Assembly: GCF_000204415.1 (NCBI RefSeq)
Contig: NC_015416.1
Coordinates: forward strand, 248,001 to 312,000
DNA from: Methanothrix soehngenii GP6
Lineage (GTDB): Archaea; Halobacteriota; Methanosarcinia; Methanotrichales; Methanotrichaceae
Length of the DNA stretch: 64,000 nucleotides
Reading direction: 5' to 3'
Part shown: positions 52,320 through 62,281 of the stretch, one piece after another
Layout of the letters: each line of letters opens with the position of its first letter
How positions within the stretch are numbered: position 1 is the stretch's first letter
Program-made: the position numbers and the translations under genes
The notes under the pieces: model-generated
What the model saw: the letters and a program-made list of their open reading frames with translations, nothing else
Databases searched by the model: none
What the model was told of the DNA's origin: nothing

Positions 52320-52568
52320 TGCACCACTTTTTTTATCATAAACCACCGTTCTATATATTAATAGCGGCTCAAAGTTATCCAATTGCCGCGGAACAAAATT
52401 TTCCGCCATTCTTAAAGCTTTCTCCTTTATCAATTGCATCAGCTCTACATCAGCCATTTGACATTGAGGATGGGGCAGCCCATATACTGAAACCTATTTT
52501 CCTTCATCCATTAGGTTTTTCGGCCATTTCCTAAGTCTTTTCGGATCACTGATTTATGGCCCTAATGA

Positions 52569-52619: not shown

Positions 52620-52856
52620 ATGTCAAAATTAAAAAGGCTAAATGAGATGATGCCAGGCGAGAGAGGAAGGGTTGCAGTCGTGTCTTCAAGCGGTGCTCTC
52701 CGCTGCAGGATGATGGAGATGGGGCTTGTAAAGGGCGCAGAGCTGGAGGTGGTAAGGCTCGCTCCTTCAGGCGATCCCGTGGAGATTCTCCTCAAGGGCT
52801 ACAGCCTCGCTCTTCGAAAGAGGGAAGCCGTGAACATAACTTTGGTGGTGGACTGA
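52620..52856 (+). CDS. feoA: FeoA-like SH3-fold protein 1
   Basis: 78 residues: M-M-P-G-E-R-G-R-V-A-V-V-S-S-S-G-A-L-R-C-R-M-M-E-M-G-L-V-K-G-A-E-L-E-V, the classic FeoA pattern. FeoA assists the FeoB ferrous iron transporter on the cytosolic side. GAGAGGTG is upstream. First of two tandem feoA genes. Confidence 0.93.
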   Translation: MSKLKRLNEMMPGERGRVAVVSSSGALRCRMMEMGLVKGAELEVVRLAPSGDPVEILLKGYSLALRKREAVNITLVVD

Positions 52857-52857
52857 C

Positions 52858-53121
52858 TTGATCAGCACGGGATCGATATCTGGAGGCAGTCTGCCTCTGG
52901 CCTTCCTCCCGGAGGGCAGAGCAGGAACTGTGCTTGAAATTCGGGGCGGGCACGGAGCTGTGAGACATCTCGAGGATATGGGCTTCGCCCCTCCTGCCAG
53001 AGTTTTAGTCCTAAAGTCCTGCCCGCCGGGTGCCATGCTTGTGATGGTGAAGGATTCAAGAATTGCCCTTGGGCGGGGCATAGCCATGAAGATACTTGTT
53101 AAAGGGGTTGATGATCCATGA
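52858..53121 (+). CDS. feoA: FeoA-like protein 2
   Basis: 87 residues from TTG 52858, 1 nt after the stop of the first feoA. G-H-G-A-V-R-H-L-E-D-M-G-F-A-P-P-A-R-V-L-V and R-I-A-L-G-R-G-I-A-M-K-I-L-V mark the FeoA fold. It overlaps feoB-N by 4 nt. Confidence 0.9.
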   Translation: MISTGSISGGSLPLAFLPEGRAGTVLEIRGGHGAVRHLEDMGFAPPARVLVLKSCPPGAMLVMVKDSRIALGRGIAMKILVKGVDDP

Positions 53122-53852
53122 TTCGAGCAGCACTTATCGGCAATCCCAATGTCGGAAAGACTGAGATTTTCAATCGCCTGACTGGGCTATCCCAGAATGT
53201 GGGCAACTTTCCCGGCGTAACGGTTGAGAAGAAGGCAGGACGGCTGGTTCATAAGGGACAGCAGATCGAGTTGGTGGACCTGCCAGGCACCTACAGCCTC
53301 ACCGCTCATGCCGTTGACGAGCTTGTGGCCAGGGACTACATCGTTATAGAGAGACCGGATGTCATCGTTGATATAGTGGACGGAAGCAACCTGGAGAGGA
53401 ACCTTTACCTCACAATGCTCTTGCTTGAAATGGATGCCAACCTGGTCATTGCTTTGAACAGATGGGATATGGTAGCAGCCAGAGATACGAGGATAGATGT
53501 GGAGAAGCTCTCCCGGCTGTTGGGCTGCCCGGTAGTTCCGACGGCTGCAATCACCGGCGAGGGCCTGAAAGAGCTGAAGGATTCGATAGTCGATGTCGCA
53601 GGGCAGAAAAGGGCGGAAGGTCCCAAATCTGCAATAAATTACGGAGACGATATCGAGCAGCTAATAAACAAAGTTGAGGAGGTAATCAAAGAGTGCACAG
53701 CGCTCAATGGGAAATATCCAAAGAGATGGCTGGCCATAAAGATGCTAGAGGGAGATGAGAGGGTCATGGAACAGACGAGAGCCGATCTATCATCGTCCCA
53801 GCTGGCGAAGATTCTATGCATAATCAAAGCCGGAGAGGCGGCAATAAAATGA
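53118..53852 (+). CDS. feoB: FeoB G-protein domain polypeptide (split FeoB, N part)
   Basis: 244 residues. G1 G-N-P-N-V-G-K-T, G3 D-L-P-G-T-Y-S-L, and a G4-like N-R-W-D in place of N-K-x-D. It ends after the GTPase and a short helical part, with TGA sharing ATGA with the following start. In most organisms FeoB is one chain; here the channel follows as a separate protein in another frame. Confidence 0.93.
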   Translation: MIRAALIGNPNVGKTEIFNRLTGLSQNVGNFPGVTVEKKAGRLVHKGQQIELVDLPGTYSLTAHAVDELVARDYIVIERPDVIVDIVDGSNLERNLYLTMLLLEMDANLVIALNRWDMVAARDTRIDVEKLSRLLGCPVVPTAAITGEGLKELKDSIVDVAGQKRAEGPKSAINYGDDIEQLINKVEEVIKECTALNGKYPKRWLAIKMLEGDERVMEQTRADLSSSQLAKILCIIKAGEAAIK

Positions 53853-55153
53853 GCGAATACGCTGAAAACCTGAGCTCTGCCCTTGCGCAAAGGAGATACG
53901 AGAGGATAGCATCGATAATGGACTCTACTGTTAAGAAGGGCAGCGAAGAAATATTTACTTTATCGGATATGCTGGACCAGGTATTCTTGAATAAGTATCT
54001 GGGCGTACCGATATTCCTGACAATGCTCTGGACGATGTTCCAGTTCGCATTTGCCGTTTCAGAGCCGTTTGTGGTCATTATCGAGAAGATCTTTGAAATG
54101 CTCGGGGCCTGGTCGGATCAGATCATATCCAATCCCCATCTGGCATCCTTTGTCTCCTTGGGCATAATCGGCGGCCTGGGATCGGTGCTGGTCTTCATTC
54201 CGCCGATCTTCGGCCTCTTTCTGGCGCTCTCGATTCTGGAGGACAGCGGATATATGGCGCGAGCCGCTTTCGTGATGGACCGGTTCATGTATCACCTGGG
54301 CCTGCACGGTCGTTCGTTCATACCGCTGATGATCGGCTTTGGCTGCAACGTCCCGGCAATCATGGCCGCCCGCAGCATGGATAACGAAAAGGATAGGATG
54401 ATCACAATGCTGATCTCCCCACTCATCAGCTGCAGCGCCAGGCTTCCTGTGTACGTGCTGATAGCCGGAGCGCTTTACGGTGCGGCTTATGCTGGAACAG
54501 CCGTTTTTGCCGTATATGCTCTGGGAATCATGCTAGCGGTTGCAATGGCCCTGATATTTAGAAGGACCCTCTTCAAGGGAGAGCCTTCGCCCTTCGTCTT
54601 GGAGCTGCCCACATATGCCGTGCCGAAAGCGCGTACTGCCATCCTCCATATGTGGTCACGGGGCAAAATGTTCCTGAAAAAGGCGGGAACGATCATATTT
54701 GGAGCTGCCATCCTTGTTTGGTTCCTATCTGTTCATCCCTGGGAGGCGACATCCGGCGGCCAGGTGATAGCTGAATCCTACATCGCCTGGATAGGACATG
54801 CAATTGAGCCGCTGTTTCAGCCCTTCGGGTGGGACTGGATGGCCGCCGTAGCGCTCCTGTTCGGCCTTGTCGCTAAAGAGGTGGTAGTCGGTACCTACGG
54901 CATTTTGCTTGGAGCCGAGGAGGCCAGCCTGGGAGATGCGCTGGTGAGCCAGGGGGTCTTCACGCCGCTAACAGGCTTCGCATTCATGGCCTTTGTACTG
55001 ATATACGTGCCATGCGTTGCAGTTATCGGGACGATTGCGAAGGAGACGAACTCGATTCGATGGCCTGCCTTTGCACTTGTATACCAAACAGCGCTTGCCT
55101 TCATCATCGCAGGTATGATCATCGGTGCGGGAAGGCTATTGGGATTGAGCTAG
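53849..55153 (+). CDS. feoB: FeoB channel polypeptide (split FeoB, C part)
   Basis: 434 residues from ATG 53849. It begins with the helical linker (A-Q-R-R-Y-E-R-I) and then the membrane domain: P-I-F-L-T-M-L-W, G-Y-M-A-R-A-A-F-V-M-D, and the Gate motifs I-G-F-G-C-N-V-P-A-I-M-A-A-R and L-I-S-C-S-A-R-L-P-V-Y, with the conserved Cys residues of the iron path. About eight or nine membrane helices. The split sits between linker and G domain, so the pair can plausibly assemble. Confidence 0.93.
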   Translation: MSEYAENLSSALAQRRYERIASIMDSTVKKGSEEIFTLSDMLDQVFLNKYLGVPIFLTMLWTMFQFAFAVSEPFVVIIEKIFEMLGAWSDQIISNPHLASFVSLGIIGGLGSVLVFIPPIFGLFLALSILEDSGYMARAAFVMDRFMYHLGLHGRSFIPLMIGFGCNVPAIMAARSMDNEKDRMITMLISPLISCSARLPVYVLIAGALYGAAYAGTAVFAVYALGIMLAVAMALIFRRTLFKGEPSPFVLELPTYAVPKARTAILHMWSRGKMFLKKAGTIIFGAAILVWFLSVHPWEATSGGQVIAESYIAWIGHAIEPLFQPFGWDWMAAVALLFGLVAKEVVVGTYGILLGAEEASLGDALVSQGVFTPLTGFAFMAFVLIYVPCVAVIGTIAKETNSIRWPAFALVYQTALAFIIAGMIIGAGRLLGLS

Positions 55154-55194
55154 AGCCGCTTAAGGCCGATAAATGGCGATTATGGAAACAAAAT

Positions 55195-55611
55195 ATGAAA
55201 GAATTTAGCGTTAGAACAGGAAGATTGCTGGGCATATACGCCCTTGTGTTGGGAGTCGGATACGGAGCACAAGCCCTTGCAGAAACGATTGGAGGCCGGG
55301 AATCGTTCCCAGGAGGAATTTTGAGCATTGCGGTTCTTCTGGTGATATCGGCGACATATCTGATGGGAGCAAAGAGCCTCGTTGCAGGCCGAAGAGAAGG
55401 GCTGTCCTTTCTCATGGGAGGACTTTTCCTCTCAGGAGCCGTGGGTGGGCTCTATCTGCTTATGACGGGAGCAGACTGGCTAATGTACCTCCTGGGAGAG
55501 GTGGAGGATTTCGCGCTGCTGTCCGAGATCTCTCCAGCCACTGTCCTCCTGATCGTAGCGCTGCCTTTGGTGCCGATGATGAGGAAGATGACCAGAGGAA
55601 TGGCCTGGTAA
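55195..55611 (+). CDS. Small membrane protein in the feo operon
   Basis: About 138 residues from ATG 55195, 41 nt after feoB-C. Four hydrophobic segments with charged ends (M-M-R-K-M-T-R-G-M-A-W). No known FeoC signature. Position between feoB and the DtxR regulator suggests an accessory to iron uptake; that is inference. Confidence 0.65.
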   Translation: MKEFSVRTGRLLGIYALVLGVGYGAQALAETIGGRESFPGGILSIAVLLVISATYLMGAKSLVAGRREGLSFLMGGLFLSGAVGGLYLLMTGADWLMYLLGEVEDFALLSEISPATVLLIVALPLVPMMRKMTRGMAW

Positions 55612-55719: not shown

Positions 55720-56250
55720 ATGAAAAGCGATTTATCCAGAAAGGCGGAGGACTACCTTGAGGCTGTCTACGTCATATCCCAGGAGAAGGGGCATGTCAGG
55801 ATCAGGGATATCTGCAAGGAGCTGGGAACCAAGCCACCTTCGGTCGTAGAGATGGTCAAAAAGCTGAACGATCGGGGATATCTCATCTACAAGAAGAACG
55901 AAGGACTATATCTTACCGCAGAAGGCGAGGAGATCGGACGCATCATCAAGGACCGTCATGACACGATATTTGCATTCCTGAAGTTCATCGGCGTCCCTGA
56001 ACAGGTTGCGGACGAGGATGCCTGCGTGATCGAGCATGAGCTCCACACCAAGACCGTGGAGCAGATAAAGAGCCTTGTGAGCTTCATCGAGACCGCTCCC
56101 GATCATCCCCAATGGCTGGATCACTTCGCCATTTTCTGCGAATTGGGAAAGCATCCCTGCATCAAGGATGCGAGGCTTAGTCAGACCATGGCAGCTCAAA
56201 TGGGAGCAGAAATGCGAAGGAAAGCAGATCACTGCGGGAGCAATGATTGA
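55720..56250 (+). CDS. DtxR/MntR-family metal-dependent repressor
   Basis: 176 residues. Winged helix at the start (K-A-E-D-Y-L-E-A-V-Y, I-C-K-E-L-G-T-K-P-P-S-V-V-E-M-V-K-K-L) and the metal-binding dimer domain with D-E-D-A-C-V-I-E-H-E-L-H. Directly downstream of feo, so probably the Fe(II) or Mn(II) sensor that represses it. There is no SH3 domain. Confidence 0.93.
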   Translation: MKSDLSRKAEDYLEAVYVISQEKGHVRIRDICKELGTKPPSVVEMVKKLNDRGYLIYKKNEGLYLTAEGEEIGRIIKDRHDTIFAFLKFIGVPEQVADEDACVIEHELHTKTVEQIKSLVSFIETAPDHPQWLDHFAIFCELGKHPCIKDARLSQTMAAQMGAEMRRKADHCGSND

Positions 56251-57383: not shown

Positions 57384-57584
57384 ACTTCAATTCATAAGCT
57401 AGAATTCCTGATATGTTAGGATCATGCTGTATTTTCTAATTTAATTTGGGTTAATTGGAAATATGCCTAATATTAGAGGGTAGCGTATCATTTTTGCTGT
57501 AAAATTTGCAGAAATATCAGTAACAAGAACTGACTTGCTCTTCACGAGATAACAGCAAGTTATTTCTTCATGAGATATTATAAT

Positions 57585-58780
57585 TGGCCCTGTATCCCCA
57601 AGTCGTCGAAACTTTGGGAGGGACACAGAGCCATGAATATATCCGACATAGCAGATGATTATCTTATCGATCGAAAAGAGGGCATGAAGAAGCTGACCGC
57701 GGGTTTTCTGAATGAGGTAATGCAGCTTGAGGCTGAAAATCAAATCCAGGCCCGTCCCTATGAACGGACTGGCAAGAGACGAGCACACCGCAACGGAACG
57801 AGATCGCGAAAACTAAAGACCATCTACGGCGAGATAGAGCTTGATAAACCTCAAATCCGAGAATTCCCATTCGAAACCGCAGTATTCGAGAGATTTTCTC
57901 GTGTGGAAGACTCATTAAGAGTTGCTGTAGCAGAATCTTATTTTGAGGGAGTATCAACCAGAAAAGTCGAGAAAGTATTCTCGAAGTTTGGATTAAAGAA
58001 CATATCTGCATCTGAAGTCTCAAGAATTGCTAAAAAGCTGGATAAATTGGTCAAAGATTTCTTGAACAGGCCCATCGAAGGATCAATCCCCTACATATTC
58101 GTGGATGCAAGCTACTTCAAGGTCCGAACAGATGGCAGATACGTAAATAAGGCATTGCTCGTTGTCGTTGCCATTCATGATGATGGATATCGCGAGATCC
58201 TCAGTGCCACGGTGGATGATAGCGAAGATGAATCCTGTTGGGAAAACTGTTTTGAAAGCTTGAAGGCTCGAGGACTTAAAGGAGTCAAATTGGTGATATC
58301 TGATGCGCATAAAGGGATACAAGCAGCCGTCCAGAAGTCATTTCTTGGAGCATCTTGGCAAATGTGTAATGTTCACTTTATGCGTGCTGTGCTCAAGAAC
58401 ATACCTAAGAAAGAGAAAAAGGAGGTCGCCTACATGCTGAAGGATGCTATTGAAGATGAGTTCAAGATGCAGGAGCTGGCTGTCATTCTTGATGATAAAG
58501 GATTCAAAAAGTCGGCGGATACGATTGATAGCTTCCGATTTGACCTTTGGAACTATAAATCGTTTCCCAGATCGCACTGGAAAAGGATCCGAACAACTAA
58601 CGTCCTGGAGAGAATCAACAAGGAGCTGAAACGAAGAAGTCGTGTGGCTGGAGCCTATTCAAATGATCAGTCGCTTCTGAGGGTGGCGGTTTGCATCATG
58701 ATGGACATTAACGAGGATTGGATAACAGGTAAAAGGTATTTATCATTGGAAGAGTAGAGTGGAATCAGGATACAGGGCCA
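57585..58780 (+). mobile_element. IS256-family insertion sequence, complete
   Basis: Ends are the 13-bp perfect inverted repeats TGGCCCTGTATCC (57585-57597) and GGATACAGGGCCA (58768-58780), enclosing one intact transposase gene. No clear 8-9 bp target duplication is seen at the flanks, so the exact ends may differ by a base or one flank has changed. Confidence 0.9.
57633..58757 (+). CDS. IS256-family transposase
   Basis: 374 residues from ATG 57633. DDE catalytic residues lie in V-D-A-S-Y-F-K-V-R, V-I-S-D-A-H-K-G-I and T-N-V-L-E-R-I-N-K-E-L-K-R-R. The intact frame and perfect terminal repeats suggest recent activity. It sits between the Cache gene and the metal-handling genes. Confidence 0.96.
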   Translation: MNISDIADDYLIDRKEGMKKLTAGFLNEVMQLEAENQIQARPYERTGKRRAHRNGTRSRKLKTIYGEIELDKPQIREFPFETAVFERFSRVEDSLRVAVAESYFEGVSTRKVEKVFSKFGLKNISASEVSRIAKKLDKLVKDFLNRPIEGSIPYIFVDASYFKVRTDGRYVNKALLVVVAIHDDGYREILSATVDDSEDESCWENCFESLKARGLKGVKLVISDAHKGIQAAVQKSFLGASWQMCNVHFMRAVLKNIPKKEKKEVAYMLKDAIEDEFKMQELAVILDDKGFKKSADTIDSFRFDLWNYKSFPRSHWKRIRTTNVLERINKELKRRSRVAGAYSNDQSLLRVAVCIMMDINEDWITGKRYLSLEE

Positions 58781-58870
58781 CTGTGAAATTACAGCAGATA
58801 TGGCACGCTACCTATTAGAGTTACATCTTGCGGATGCAGTTGCATCTGGTTTAAAATAGAGGTATTGAAA

Positions 58871-59548
58871 ATGAATGCATTGAATGGCTCAATTGTCATC
58901 GCCATGGCAGCTTTGGTGATGATCATAGCTCCTGCCGCGGCAGCTGATGAAAGCAGCAATTTCACCGTCGACGATATCAGCAATTTCTTCCACGCCATGC
59001 AAAAGACAGACTTCGGGGATATTGAGATATCAGGAAACAACATCACATTCTATAGCCCGGAAGGCTCTGTCAAATGCAAGGGCGAATACGATTACGTGGG
59101 ATCCAAGACCATAGACTTTCAGGGATATCCGGTAGAGTGGCATATGTTCAATTTGCGATCGGACAAAGAAGGCTGCTTGGAATACAAACACGTGATAGCG
59201 ACCGCGGTTCACGATGAGGCCGGGCTTACTCACTGGCATATGAGATACGGCAAGCTGTGCTTTGATATCTTGATGGAAAATCCTGCTTACGGGATGTGGT
59301 ATCCAACCATGGCTGCCAACGGGACCAATTCCGAAATGGTCTCAAACGCCTACAGTGCCGAGGCTCAGATGATCGGGGCATTTGCCGTCGCAGCCAAACA
59401 AGCCTCCAACAACACTCTCTCTCTTGAAAAATGGAGCGGAAGGTGGGTTAACACGGAGCAGCTGCTGGATGATCCTCTCATGGATCCGGTCTACGAGGCG
59501 GCAGCCAATACTGCGAATTCTCTGGGCGAGAAGAGCGTTTCGAACTAA
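58871..59548 (+). CDS. Exported ZinT-like metal-binding protein, halves in reversed order
   Basis: 225 residues from ATG 58871 (GAGGT 7 nt upstream). After a signal peptide (about 1-25) comes sequence matching the C-terminal part of ZinT: T-D-F-G-D-I-E-I-S-G-N-N-I-T-F-Y, C-K-G-E-Y-D-Y-V-G-S-K, Y-K-H-V-I-A-T (His107) and T-H-W-H-M-R-Y-G (His121, His123), equivalents of the ZinT zinc ligands. Only afterwards (about 180-210) comes T-L-S-L-E-K-W-S-G-R-W-V-N ... D-P-V-Y-E-A-A, which is the N-terminal part in ZinT. Probably binds Zn2+ or another metal outside the cell. Next gene is the exported chelatase-like protein. Confidence 0.75.
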   Translation: MNALNGSIVIAMAALVMIIAPAAAADESSNFTVDDISNFFHAMQKTDFGDIEISGNNITFYSPEGSVKCKGEYDYVGSKTIDFQGYPVEWHMFNLRSDKEGCLEYKHVIATAVHDEAGLTHWHMRYGKLCFDILMENPAYGMWYPTMAANGTNSEMVSNAYSAEAQMIGAFAVAAKQASNNTLSLEKWSGRWVNTEQLLDDPLMDPVYEAAANTANSLGEKSVSN

Positions 59549-59577
59549 TTTTATTATTTTTAATGGAGTATTGGTAT

Positions 59578-61311
59578 ATGAAGACAATGAGCATCAGACT
59601 GATTGCCATAGTTCTCGTCATCGTCCTGTCAATAACCTGGCCAGCCTTGGCAGAAGGCGAAGGTGCAAATGAGGCTATGGACAAGGCGGTTTCTGCATTT
59701 GAAAAGTCAGGAGGTGAGCTGGGGGTGCTGGTGGTGGCGCACGGGAGCGATGAGGATTTATGGTGTCAGCAGGTTCGTCAGGTCGTAGCAAACGTATCTT
59801 TACCCTATCCGGTGGAGCTGGGATTTCTGGAATTTGTTCCTAATGAGAGCATCGACGATGCAGTTGAAAGGCTTGAATCACAAGGGATCAGGGATATTAT
59901 TGCAATTCCTCTATTCGTGTCTTCATACAGCAGCCATATTCAGGAGATCGAGTATGTGCTGAGGCTTAGAGAGACTCTCCCCTCAGGCGAAGATCTGGCT
60001 CGGGTGAACACCACTGCCAATATCACCATGACCCGCGCGCTAGATGATCATTCTCTGGTGGCCTACATTCTGGCGGACTGGGTTTCCCAGATGAGCAGTG
60101 ATCCGTCCAATGAGACGGTGGTGATTCTTTCACATGGAACTGACGAGGAAGGAGACATCCGATCTCAGGTCTGCTGCCAGAACTGGCTTGCAGAGGAGGT
60201 CAAGTCTTACCTGCGCTACTGGGCGAGCCCCTCTATCAAGCTCAGAGATGTGAAGTATGCGTTCATTCACGGCAACCAAACCTTATACCCTGATTTGACG
60301 GTGGAATCGGTGATGCGAAACGCTTCCAAGGCTGGAGGCTCCTCAGAGGACGGGAATGGGGGCGTGATAGTTCTTCCCTTGATGGTCGCTGGAGGATCTA
60401 TAACCGATAGCCAGATTCCAAAGCTTCTCGAAGGTTATAGCTGTCGTTACGATAGAGCGACTCTGGCATCTCATCCCAATCTCGCCAGGTGGATTGAGAA
60501 CCGGGTCAGGTGTGAGATAGGCGAGGGCATGGGAGGCGTCTTGATCATCGATCACGGATCCAGCGATCCGAAGAGGGCTGAGGCAGTGAGAGAGCTGGCT
60601 GGTCAGGTGAATCAGATGTTATCAAGCATGCCAGTTGCAGTGGCCTTTGCAGAGAACGCCGCTGAAGAAGAGACCATTCCCGGAGGAATTGCCAGGCTGC
60701 TCGATCAGGGGGCCAGGAGAATAATTGCCGTTACGCTGTTCACCGGAAACACCGTCGACCACGAGGAAGCTCGAGATGAGGTCTATTCCGCTATGCAAAG
60801 CATCAACCAGACGAAGATTCTCATCACTGCACCGCTGTATGAAGGAATTTGTGCTGAGGTGAAGGGGCCGATCGACGATCATCTTTTAATTGCCGATCTG
60901 ATCCTGGACCGGGCGAGAGAAGTCAGCATTGATGCAACCAACGAAACGCTGATTTTGGCTCCTTGGGGCAGCTCAACCTACTTCGAGGAGAGCGAGCTTT
61001 TGGCCAAGTCCCTGGTTGAGAGGATAAAGGCAAGCTCAGAGTTCAAGGATGTTGGGTTCGGCTTTATGGAGTATCAGGGCAGCCCGAACATAAGAGAGGC
61101 TGTGGAGAAGGCCCAGGGCGAAGCTGTGATCGTCGTCACCGTCAACAGCATGGGAACGAAATACGTCGATGATCTGATCGCCGAACGCCTGGAAGGACTC
61201 AACTATACCCACAATGGAAAAGGGTTCTATGGCTATTCTGAGAACCTCGATCCTCATCCAAACATCGCCCGATGGATCGAGTACAAGGTCGCAGAGGAGG
61301 TGAGGGCTTAA
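59578..61311 (+). CDS. Exported protein of about four CbiX/SirB chelatase-like repeats
   Basis: 577 residues from ATG 59578 (GGAG 10 nt upstream). Signal peptide (ends P-A-L-A-E), then repeats opening V-L-V-V-A-H-G-S-D-E, V-V-I-L-S-H-G-T-D-E, V-L-I-I-D-H-G-S-S-D and L-I-L-A-P-W-G-S-S; the first three keep the catalytic-type His. Second histidines occur in repeats one (S-S-H-I-Q-E-I) and three (V-D-H-E-E-A). CbiX/SirB normally insert Co or Fe into sirohydrochlorin in the cytosol as 130-260 residue proteins; an exported multi-repeat form suggests metal or tetrapyrrole binding outside. Confidence 0.82.
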   Translation: MKTMSIRLIAIVLVIVLSITWPALAEGEGANEAMDKAVSAFEKSGGELGVLVVAHGSDEDLWCQQVRQVVANVSLPYPVELGFLEFVPNESIDDAVERLESQGIRDIIAIPLFVSSYSSHIQEIEYVLRLRETLPSGEDLARVNTTANITMTRALDDHSLVAYILADWVSQMSSDPSNETVVILSHGTDEEGDIRSQVCCQNWLAEEVKSYLRYWASPSIKLRDVKYAFIHGNQTLYPDLTVESVMRNASKAGGSSEDGNGGVIVLPLMVAGGSITDSQIPKLLEGYSCRYDRATLASHPNLARWIENRVRCEIGEGMGGVLIIDHGSSDPKRAEAVRELAGQVNQMLSSMPVAVAFAENAAEEETIPGGIARLLDQGARRIIAVTLFTGNTVDHEEARDEVYSAMQSINQTKILITAPLYEGICAEVKGPIDDHLLIADLILDRAREVSIDATNETLILAPWGSSTYFEESELLAKSLVERIKASSEFKDVGFGFMEYQGSPNIREAVEKAQGEAVIVVTVNSMGTKYVDDLIAERLEGLNYTHNGKGFYGYSENLDPHPNIARWIEYKVAEEVRA

Positions 61312-61753
61312 AAACCTCAAAGGAGGCTTGAGGCCTCTTGTACCTCAACTGAACGGATTGGCCAAAACTCCTGCAGGTAATCGCCTCGACCATCGCCGAG
61401 AGGCCGGGGCGAACACCTGACATGCGACTTGCGATTGGATCAGATGGCGACATAATAGCCGCGAATTGTCCATTTGGCATTTAAAATCATAGGACCACAA
61501 GCATTTAAGAGTCAATAATTGCGTTTTTTTTGTATTTTCAGAAAATCCTATCATTATTAGGGATCAAGTTATTGCCGCCTAACAGAGTATATCGGTACAT
61601 CAGAGCCCATAAGGACGGATGGAACGTTGGCCATCGGTTTCCTCCTCATAAATGCTCCTTCTGTCCTTTGGACTTTGCCATGGAAGTTTCACAATCGGCG
61701 AAGCCTCAAGGCACTGAATACGACAGTCTAACTTTATAGAGGTGTATTATATC
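61312..61753. other. Intergenic stretch
   Basis: CCTCAAAGGAGGCTTGAGG just after the chelatase-like gene may form a terminator hairpin. A 69-codon frame at 61530-61739 has no ribosome site and is not supported. GAGGTG at 61739-61744 serves the next gene. Confidence 0.4.
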
Positions 61754-62281
61754 ATGAAGGTTTTTTCCGGCTGCAGATGGGCAGCTGAACTGAGATTTAA
61801 AAATTACCTGGAGCAGATGGGCATAGATCTTGAAGGCAGCATCCTGGACATAGCAAGTGGGCCGTTTTCCCTGGGCTGCATTTGCAATGATGTCCATGGA
61901 CATGACAATTGTCCCGGATTCGTCCGCTGTCTGGAGGAGATGGGAATACCTGCCAGTCTCGCCGATATCAGTCGGCTTGATTATCCCTCCAAGAGCTTTC
62001 GCTATGTGGTCACCTTTAATCCACCTTTAAGGCCATTTCGCCAGCGTGGGGATGCTCGATCAGGGATCAAGAGGTTTTTGGAGGACATGCTTCGCATAGC
62101 CCAGGAGAGGGTGATTATAAGAAGCAGCACCGTTATTCCCCTTCTGCCGGCCGAGTACGATTCGCTCATTGATAGAAGTGGAGAGAATTTTGCGATCTAC
62201 AGGGCGGATTGCTATCGTCCTGGCAGTGAGATGTACTCCCAGTGCGAGACTCATTCGATCCCAATCCAATCGACCTCTTAG
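61754..62281 (+). CDS. Class I methyltransferase-like protein
   Basis: 175 residues from ATG 61754. The SAM-binding start is seen as I-L-D-I-A-S-G-P-F-S-L-G, followed by S-L-A-D-I-S-R-L-D-Y-P-S-K-S-F-R-Y-V-V-T-F-N-P-P-L. It is shorter than most class I enzymes and the glycine loop is not canonical, so activity is uncertain. GAGGTG is well placed upstream. It precedes the P-loop kinase by 27 nt. Confidence 0.6.
   Translation: MKVFSGCRWAAELRFKNYLEQMGIDLEGSILDIASGPFSLGCICNDVHGHDNCPGFVRCLEEMGIPASLADISRLDYPSKSFRYVVTFNPPLRPFRQRGDARSGIKRFLEDMLRIAQERVIIRSSTVIPLLPAEYDSLIDRSGENFAIYRADCYRPGSEMYSQCETHSIPIQSTS

Follow-up and report, generated by a model that had tools for sequence, protein, structure and literature searches.

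The gene at positions 59563–61311 (forward strand) of the window, a 64,000-nucleotide stretch of Methanothrix soehngenii GP6 DNA, encodes an exported protein of four CbiX repeats, arranged as two SirB-like chelatase units. The protein is probably an extracytoplasmic iron-supply protein of a DtxR/Feo regulon. Whether it is also the Methanothrix version of a widespread archaeal exported iron-starvation protein, working together with the Fe(II) importer Feo, we judge an evenly balanced question. The assignment is supported by a signal peptide, a predicted fold, conserved His pairs, linkage to Feo, DtxR and FmdE genes and a common operator. Apart from FeoAB, little is known of how methanogens and anaerobic methane oxidisers acquire iron (PMC8351635). 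Named here are a conserved family of exported proteins, the metal binders associated with it and an operator, which defines a candidate iron regulon that spans the Methanosarcinales, ANME-1, ANME-2 and relatives. In the open-access literature, no description of either the protein family or the operator was found.

An exported protein of tandem chelatase units

The ORF encodes 582 amino acids when read from 59563, an alternative start at 59578 being equally good. As read from the translation, the N-terminus is a hydrophobic signal peptide that ends in ...TWPALA. A lipobox is absent from this N-terminus, hence the product is not a lipoprotein. The CbiX profile PF01903 matched the protein in four stretches (115.9 bits, E = 1.3e-33, curated cut-off 22). 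The earlier note had described about four such units, three of them with the key His, and this description holds: the first-His motifs of repeats 1 to 3 read AHGS (H60), SHGT (H191) and DHGS (H331), and in the PWGS of repeat 4 the His is lost. Because repeats 1 and 3 also retain the second catalytic His (H125 and H400), which the earlier note had missed, the protein is best described as two SirB/CbiXL-type pairs, residues about 53–320 and 321–582, with a complete His pair in the first half of each unit (H60/H125 in unit 1, H331/H400 in unit 2). That the gene is real follows from a relative in another genus, which aligns at 59% identity over residues 46–580, and from the key residues kept over 35 homologues: H60 and D161 in all 35, H191 and H304 in 34, H163 in 33 and H125 in 32. 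Unit 2 is 57% identical between genera, versus 28–33% identity to unit 1, and forms its own deep clade. A recent copying of unit 1 into unit 2 was therefore rejected, and a duplication of the units, if there was one, is old.

The AF2 model of the protein (pLDDT 82.7, pTM 0.70) predicts the two-half-domain class II chelatase fold. The chelatase character that the earlier note had read from the repeats reappears in the structure prediction, where residues 321–582 match SirB (PDB 5zt7) with a Z score of 24.4 (236 residues aligned, rmsd 2.3), followed by ferrochelatases, CbiK and FetB. These fold matches cover unit 2, and the fold of unit 1 is based on sequence profiles and the high model confidence. 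Against the CfbA nickelochelatase equivalog NF033198 the protein scored 98.7 bits, under the cut-off of 120, and the CbiK family PF06180 gave no match to it at E ≤ 1, although one relative does match. By eye, the second His lies one residue later than in CfbA and in the CbiK register, so that the chelatase site may have changed function.

The fold and His pair are those of SirB, CbiX and CbiK, as would be expected of an extracytoplasmic chelatase that inserts Fe, Co, Ni, Zn or Mn into a tetrapyrrole, or swaps the metal there. P. gingivalis FetB reportedly inserts Mn into protoporphyrin (PMC13402209). We nevertheless consider an inserting enzyme improbable, as biosynthetic substrates such as sirohydrochlorin are cytosolic, the GP6 genome already has a separate cytosolic CfbA-like gene elsewhere (L001), and iron-repressed control, discussed below, suits iron uptake better than iron use. 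GP6 also encodes a second exported class II chelatase, of CbiK type (PF06180), at L046:6909–7847 (C1, about 667 kb). It adjoins genes for a FecCD-type permease and binding proteins, an arrangement similar to that of Iht.

Gene neighbourhood and relatives of the family

FeoAB and DtxR, which had been named as neighbours from the sequence, were identified by profile matches upstream of zinT-cbiX, all on the forward strand. Two copies of feoA (52620–52856, PF04023, E = 5.9e-19; 52858–53121, PF04023, E = 3.1e-16) are followed by feoB, whose GTPase part (53118–53852, FeoB_N, E = 3.8e-62) and membrane part (53816–55153, Gate, E = 2.6e-43; FeoB_C, E = 1e-19) are encoded by ORFs of their own. A small membrane protein that belongs to no Pfam family (55183–55611) stands between feoB and the gene of a DtxR-family iron-dependent repressor (55720–56250; PF01325, E = 6.3e-19; PF02742, E = 8.9e-15). 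This division of FeoB at 53118–55153, with a membrane ORF that overlaps or adjoins the GTPase ORF, recurs in L048, L049, L054, L066 and L073. Small membrane proteins likewise follow feoB in related loci (clusters 5 and 10), and by eye they resemble the product of the ORF at 55183–55611.

Neighbours of the family were surveyed outside the window, in 31 archaeal loci of other genomes that include many short contigs. When flanking ORFs were clustered without preselection, FeoB, DtxR and FeoA came near the top, directly after the CbiX cluster. Profile searches of the 31 loci counted FeoB in 9, DtxR in 9, FeoA in 10 and ZinT in 3; at least one Feo or DtxR gene was present in 13 of the 31, and of the 17 loci that exceed 12 kb, 10 have one. 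In 28 of the 31, the gene encodes the chelatase pair in fusion with an FmdE-like domain, which bears an HGHxCPC-type motif. The earlier note had looked to a conserved pairing with the ZinT-like gene. Linkage is indeed conserved, but mainly with FeoA, FeoB, DtxR and the FmdE-like domain, whereas ZinT linkage is limited to the Methanothrix lineage and two ANME-1 loci.

A near-identical copy of the protein is encoded by the MAG PtaU1.Bin060 (L047). The scan of species genomes yielded 38 loci, mostly from Methanosarcinales, ANME-1 and ANME-2, and the family is present in 20 of 295 sampled genomes of the phylum (11 of 108 genera). Some Bacteroidota have a CbiX pair with a signal peptide too, and a search of plasmids gave weak matches only, in Candidatus Manganitrophus. 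In archaea, the family usually takes the form of one CbiX pair with a fused FmdE-like domain. The four-repeat form is confined to Methanothrix and near kin (L047, L048, L049), and in two of these three loci a separate FmdE-like gene lies nearby. Other members carry GLUG, NosD-like, beta-propeller, dockerin or PGF-CTERM parts, as on surface proteins. One of them, a surface protein of 1650 aa (L072:5422–10371), combines two CbiX pairs with GLUG repeats and an FmdE-like domain; a ZinT-like domain suspected in it by eye from an MPSHIHFYY stretch (L040/L072) found no match in Pfam.

In the relative L062 the repeats are multiplied to as many as six half-domains, as for a binding protein. This brings in the strongest rival to an iron-stripping enzyme, a non-catalytic extracytoplasmic binder of Fe(II) or divalent metal, in which the chelatase fold would be a scaffold that concentrates Fe(II) for FeoB and no tetrapyrrole would take part. 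The ZinT-like and FmdE-like partners are also metal binders, and both the regulon and the Feo linkage would fit. However, different genera retain both halves of the cleft together with the complete His/His pair, beyond the need of a simple binder, and we regard a pure binder as rather unlikely.

The ZinT-like neighbour reported earlier is real. Its gene (58871–59548, forward strand, a TTG start at 58865 also being possible) lies directly upstream of cbiX, and the exported product matches PF09223 (E = 7.4e-12) and has the HxH metal-ligand motif. To judge by sequence, the protein is circularly permuted in the Methanothrix lineage. The element WxGxW...LLDDPLMDPVY, which is N-terminal in the ZinT proteins of ANME-1 and E. 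coli, is C-terminal in the protein of the window. In a permutation test the protein scored 441 against a doubled ANME-1 ZinT versus 344 against the linear sequence, and its C-terminal piece reached 104 with the N-terminus of the ANME-1 protein, where shuffles did not exceed 48. The same permuted order was found in a relative of 73% identity (G035, L041:8880–9554). Structure prediction of the ZinT-like protein, made from three sequences only, reached a mean pLDDT of 46, too low to be of use. In G035, of a related genus, the adjacent multi-CbiX gene (L041, C5, about 124.4 kb) is a decayed pseudogene with deletions and the ZinT gene is intact, hence the ZinT-like protein does not need the chelatase.

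ZinT is classically a zinc protein, and the PF09223 neighbour, together with a relative in G054 that adjoins a ZnuABC operon, would be in line with a role in zinc acquisition alongside ZinT and, in some species, ZnuABC. Such a role is very improbable here, given that the ZnuABC linkage was seen once and that the operator described below is common to feoA, FmdE-type and flavodoxin genes. Since this operator covers feoA and flavodoxin, a zinc or ZinT function was not our first choice as the main one. At L044:2560–4641, a ZnuABC operon beside a CbiX-FmdE gene encodes a ZnuA-type binding protein of 693 aa that contains a large insert.

A common TTAGG-N16-CCTAA operator

The half-sites TTAGG and CCTAA were seen in the promoters of cbiX-family loci. 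Over 384.5 kb of DNA, TTAGG-N16-CCTAA occurs in 52 copies, a count that is not fully independent because some loci are near-identical (L056/L057 and L059/L060); 49 of the copies differ in their 40-bp context. Dinucleotide shuffles contained 0.1 on average and never more than 2. Other spacings gave 15 (N14) and 6 (N4) occurrences, and most of the remainder 0–3. The middle of the operator is TATA-like (TTATTT), and the sites overlap promoters. Upstream DNA was available for 29 chelatase genes: an exact copy lies within 300 bp of 19 of them, and 25 have a copy if up to one mismatch is allowed. In L047 and L049 the operator stands before the first gene of the operon. TTAGG-N16-CCTAA was also found upstream of feoA, zinT, FmdE-type and flavodoxin genes, flavodoxin being a common iron-starvation gene. 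Each IdeR monomer reads one CCTAA quintet (PMC8464063), and the likeness of the half-sites suggests that DtxR may bind the TTAGG/CCTAA operators. The N16 spacing, as well as N14, differs from the canonical 9-bp and 4-bp spacings of bacterial quintets, so that the regulator could be another protein than DtxR.

In the window, a predicted DtxR-type operator array covers the feoA promoter (52511–52565). It consists of TTAGG-N14-CCTAA and then TTcGG-N16-CCTAA, a site with one mismatch (52540–52565), and overlaps TATA-like DNA (TTTATGG). The predicted native operator of zinT-cbiX (57416–57470) is composed of a TTAGG and, 29 bp on, TTtGG-N16-CCTAA (57445–57470). An exact TTAGG-N16-CCTAA at 61557–61582, one of only two copies in the 3.03 Mb GP6 genome (3,026,645 bases in all, of which the chromosome has 3,008,626), lies upstream of a 179-aa ORF (61742–62281, forward strand) that belongs to no Pfam family and is a probable member of the same regulon. 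An exact copy is absent from most sampled Methanothrix genomes. Near zinT, G035 has a homologue of the 179-aa ORF; the operator has the same form in G034. With one mismatch allowed, the GP6 genome has 26 sites, three of which lie within about 9 kb here (feoA, zinT-cbiX and ORF 61742); at two mismatches the operator shows no excess in the window.

In GP6, an IS256/Mutator-type insertion sequence (57479–58812, forward strand; transposase 57570–58757, PF00872, E = 4.7e-101) begins 8 bp past the zinT-cbiX operator and separates it from the operon. The element has the termini GGTAGCG/CGCTACC and an 8-bp target duplication, TATTAGAG. A 99%-identical sister MAG (L047) has the empty site and an uninterrupted operon. 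Because of this separation, expression of zinT-cbiX in GP6 is uncertain and may be altered.

The earlier note had also pointed to a BtuCD-type importer. About 2 kb downstream of cbiX, the opposite strand encodes an ABC importer of FecCD type together with an ATPase and a binding protein, but its involvement is unsupported, because its promoters carry no operator copy. The proximity of this operon, and the exported CbiK beside a FecCD permease elsewhere in the genome, are what would speak for a hemophore or corrinoid capture protein that feeds the FecCD/BtuCD-type importer with whole tetrapyrrole. Besides the operator-free importer promoters, this is opposed by the flanking-ORF clusters, in which no FecCD-type importer recurs beside the relatives, and we hold a capture protein of this kind to be scarcely credible. 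A B12/BtuCD function was rejected, as the importer is without the operator.

Proposed iron supply and comparison with known systems

The extracytoplasmic metal-capture role suggested earlier is supported by these results, and iron is a likelier metal than Zn, Co or Ni. How an iron-supply protein with chelatase units might act can be outlined as follows. Under iron shortage, the DtxR-type repressor encoded nearby would leave the operators that overlap the feoA and zinT-cbiX promoters. The exported chelatase units would then act outside the membrane, most likely as a demetallase. An iron tetrapyrrole (heme or siroheme), derived from dead cells or from cytochrome-rich partner microbes, would be bound in the cleft between two half-domains, and Fe(II) would be drawn from it onto the His/His site and released. 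Holding the Fe(II) and passing it on to FeoB would be the task of the FmdE-like domain in most relatives and of the ZinT-like protein in GP6. We infer iron as the metal, a tetrapyrrole as the substrate and removal as the direction of the reaction. Iron stripping from a tetrapyrrole is suggested because the cleft and the His pairs are kept and because B. fragilis and IhtB/FetB offer precedents; for this specific demetallation step we put the chances at somewhat below even. If it takes place, these archaea could obtain iron from the heme of cytochrome-rich partners. A still wider proposal is that methanogens and ANME archaea mine iron at their surface with a dedicated system, under the control of a DtxR-type repressor at the new TTAGG-N16-CCTAA operator, in which SirB-type demetallases would strip the heme of neighbours and dead cells, and FmdE-like or (permuted) ZinT-like proteins would relay Fe(II) to FeoB. 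In this full extent the proposal is speculative and, on balance, doubtful.

The earlier premise that class II chelatases act in the cytosol was too strong, as precedents for export exist in P. gingivalis IhtB/FetB and the periplasmic CbiK of D. vulgaris. B. subtilis SirB/CbiXL (PDB 5zt7) shares the two-half-domain class II fold and the His pair in its N-terminal half. In contrast to SirB, the GP6 protein is exported, has tandem units and keeps a first His (H191) in the second half of unit 1, and its gene lies beside Feo and has an iron-type operator. The periplasmic CbiK of D. vulgaris (PDB 2xvx, a solved structure; Z 19.2) is likewise an exported class II chelatase, but a single unit of CbiK type, and we know of no FmdE or ZinT partner reported for it. 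P. gingivalis IhtB and FetB, which we take to be the same protein, are alike in being exported, homologous to class II chelatases and linked to iron supply (PDB 9b86, Z 18.9). They differ as a CbiK-type lipoprotein of a TonB/ABC operon, without FmdE, ZinT or CbiX tandem, which feeds IhtA-E and not Feo. Published proposals assign to this CbiK-like lipoprotein the removal of iron from heme (PMC10913741, PMC6460266, PMC13402209). B. fragilis needs FeoAB to use heme iron that is stripped outside the inner membrane (PMC6460266). In pathway logic, its BtuS1/BtuS2 with FeoAB, as well as HmuS, resemble the proposed system, whereas BtuS1/BtuS2 and HmuS are of CobN/ChlH type and of unrelated fold.

The partners can be compared with known families as well. 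To our knowledge, export of an FmdE-like domain has been undescribed. The FmdE family (PF02663) shares with the domain fused to, or encoded beside, the relatives an HGHxC-type motif; in solved FmdE proteins H/H/C ligands bind Zn or Ni, and the function of the family is not known (PMC2954224). ZinT/YodA (PF09223) is related to the neighbour of the GP6 chelatase by sequence match and ligand motif, but the protein of the Methanothrix lineage appears circularly permuted and is encoded in an iron rather than a Zur locus.
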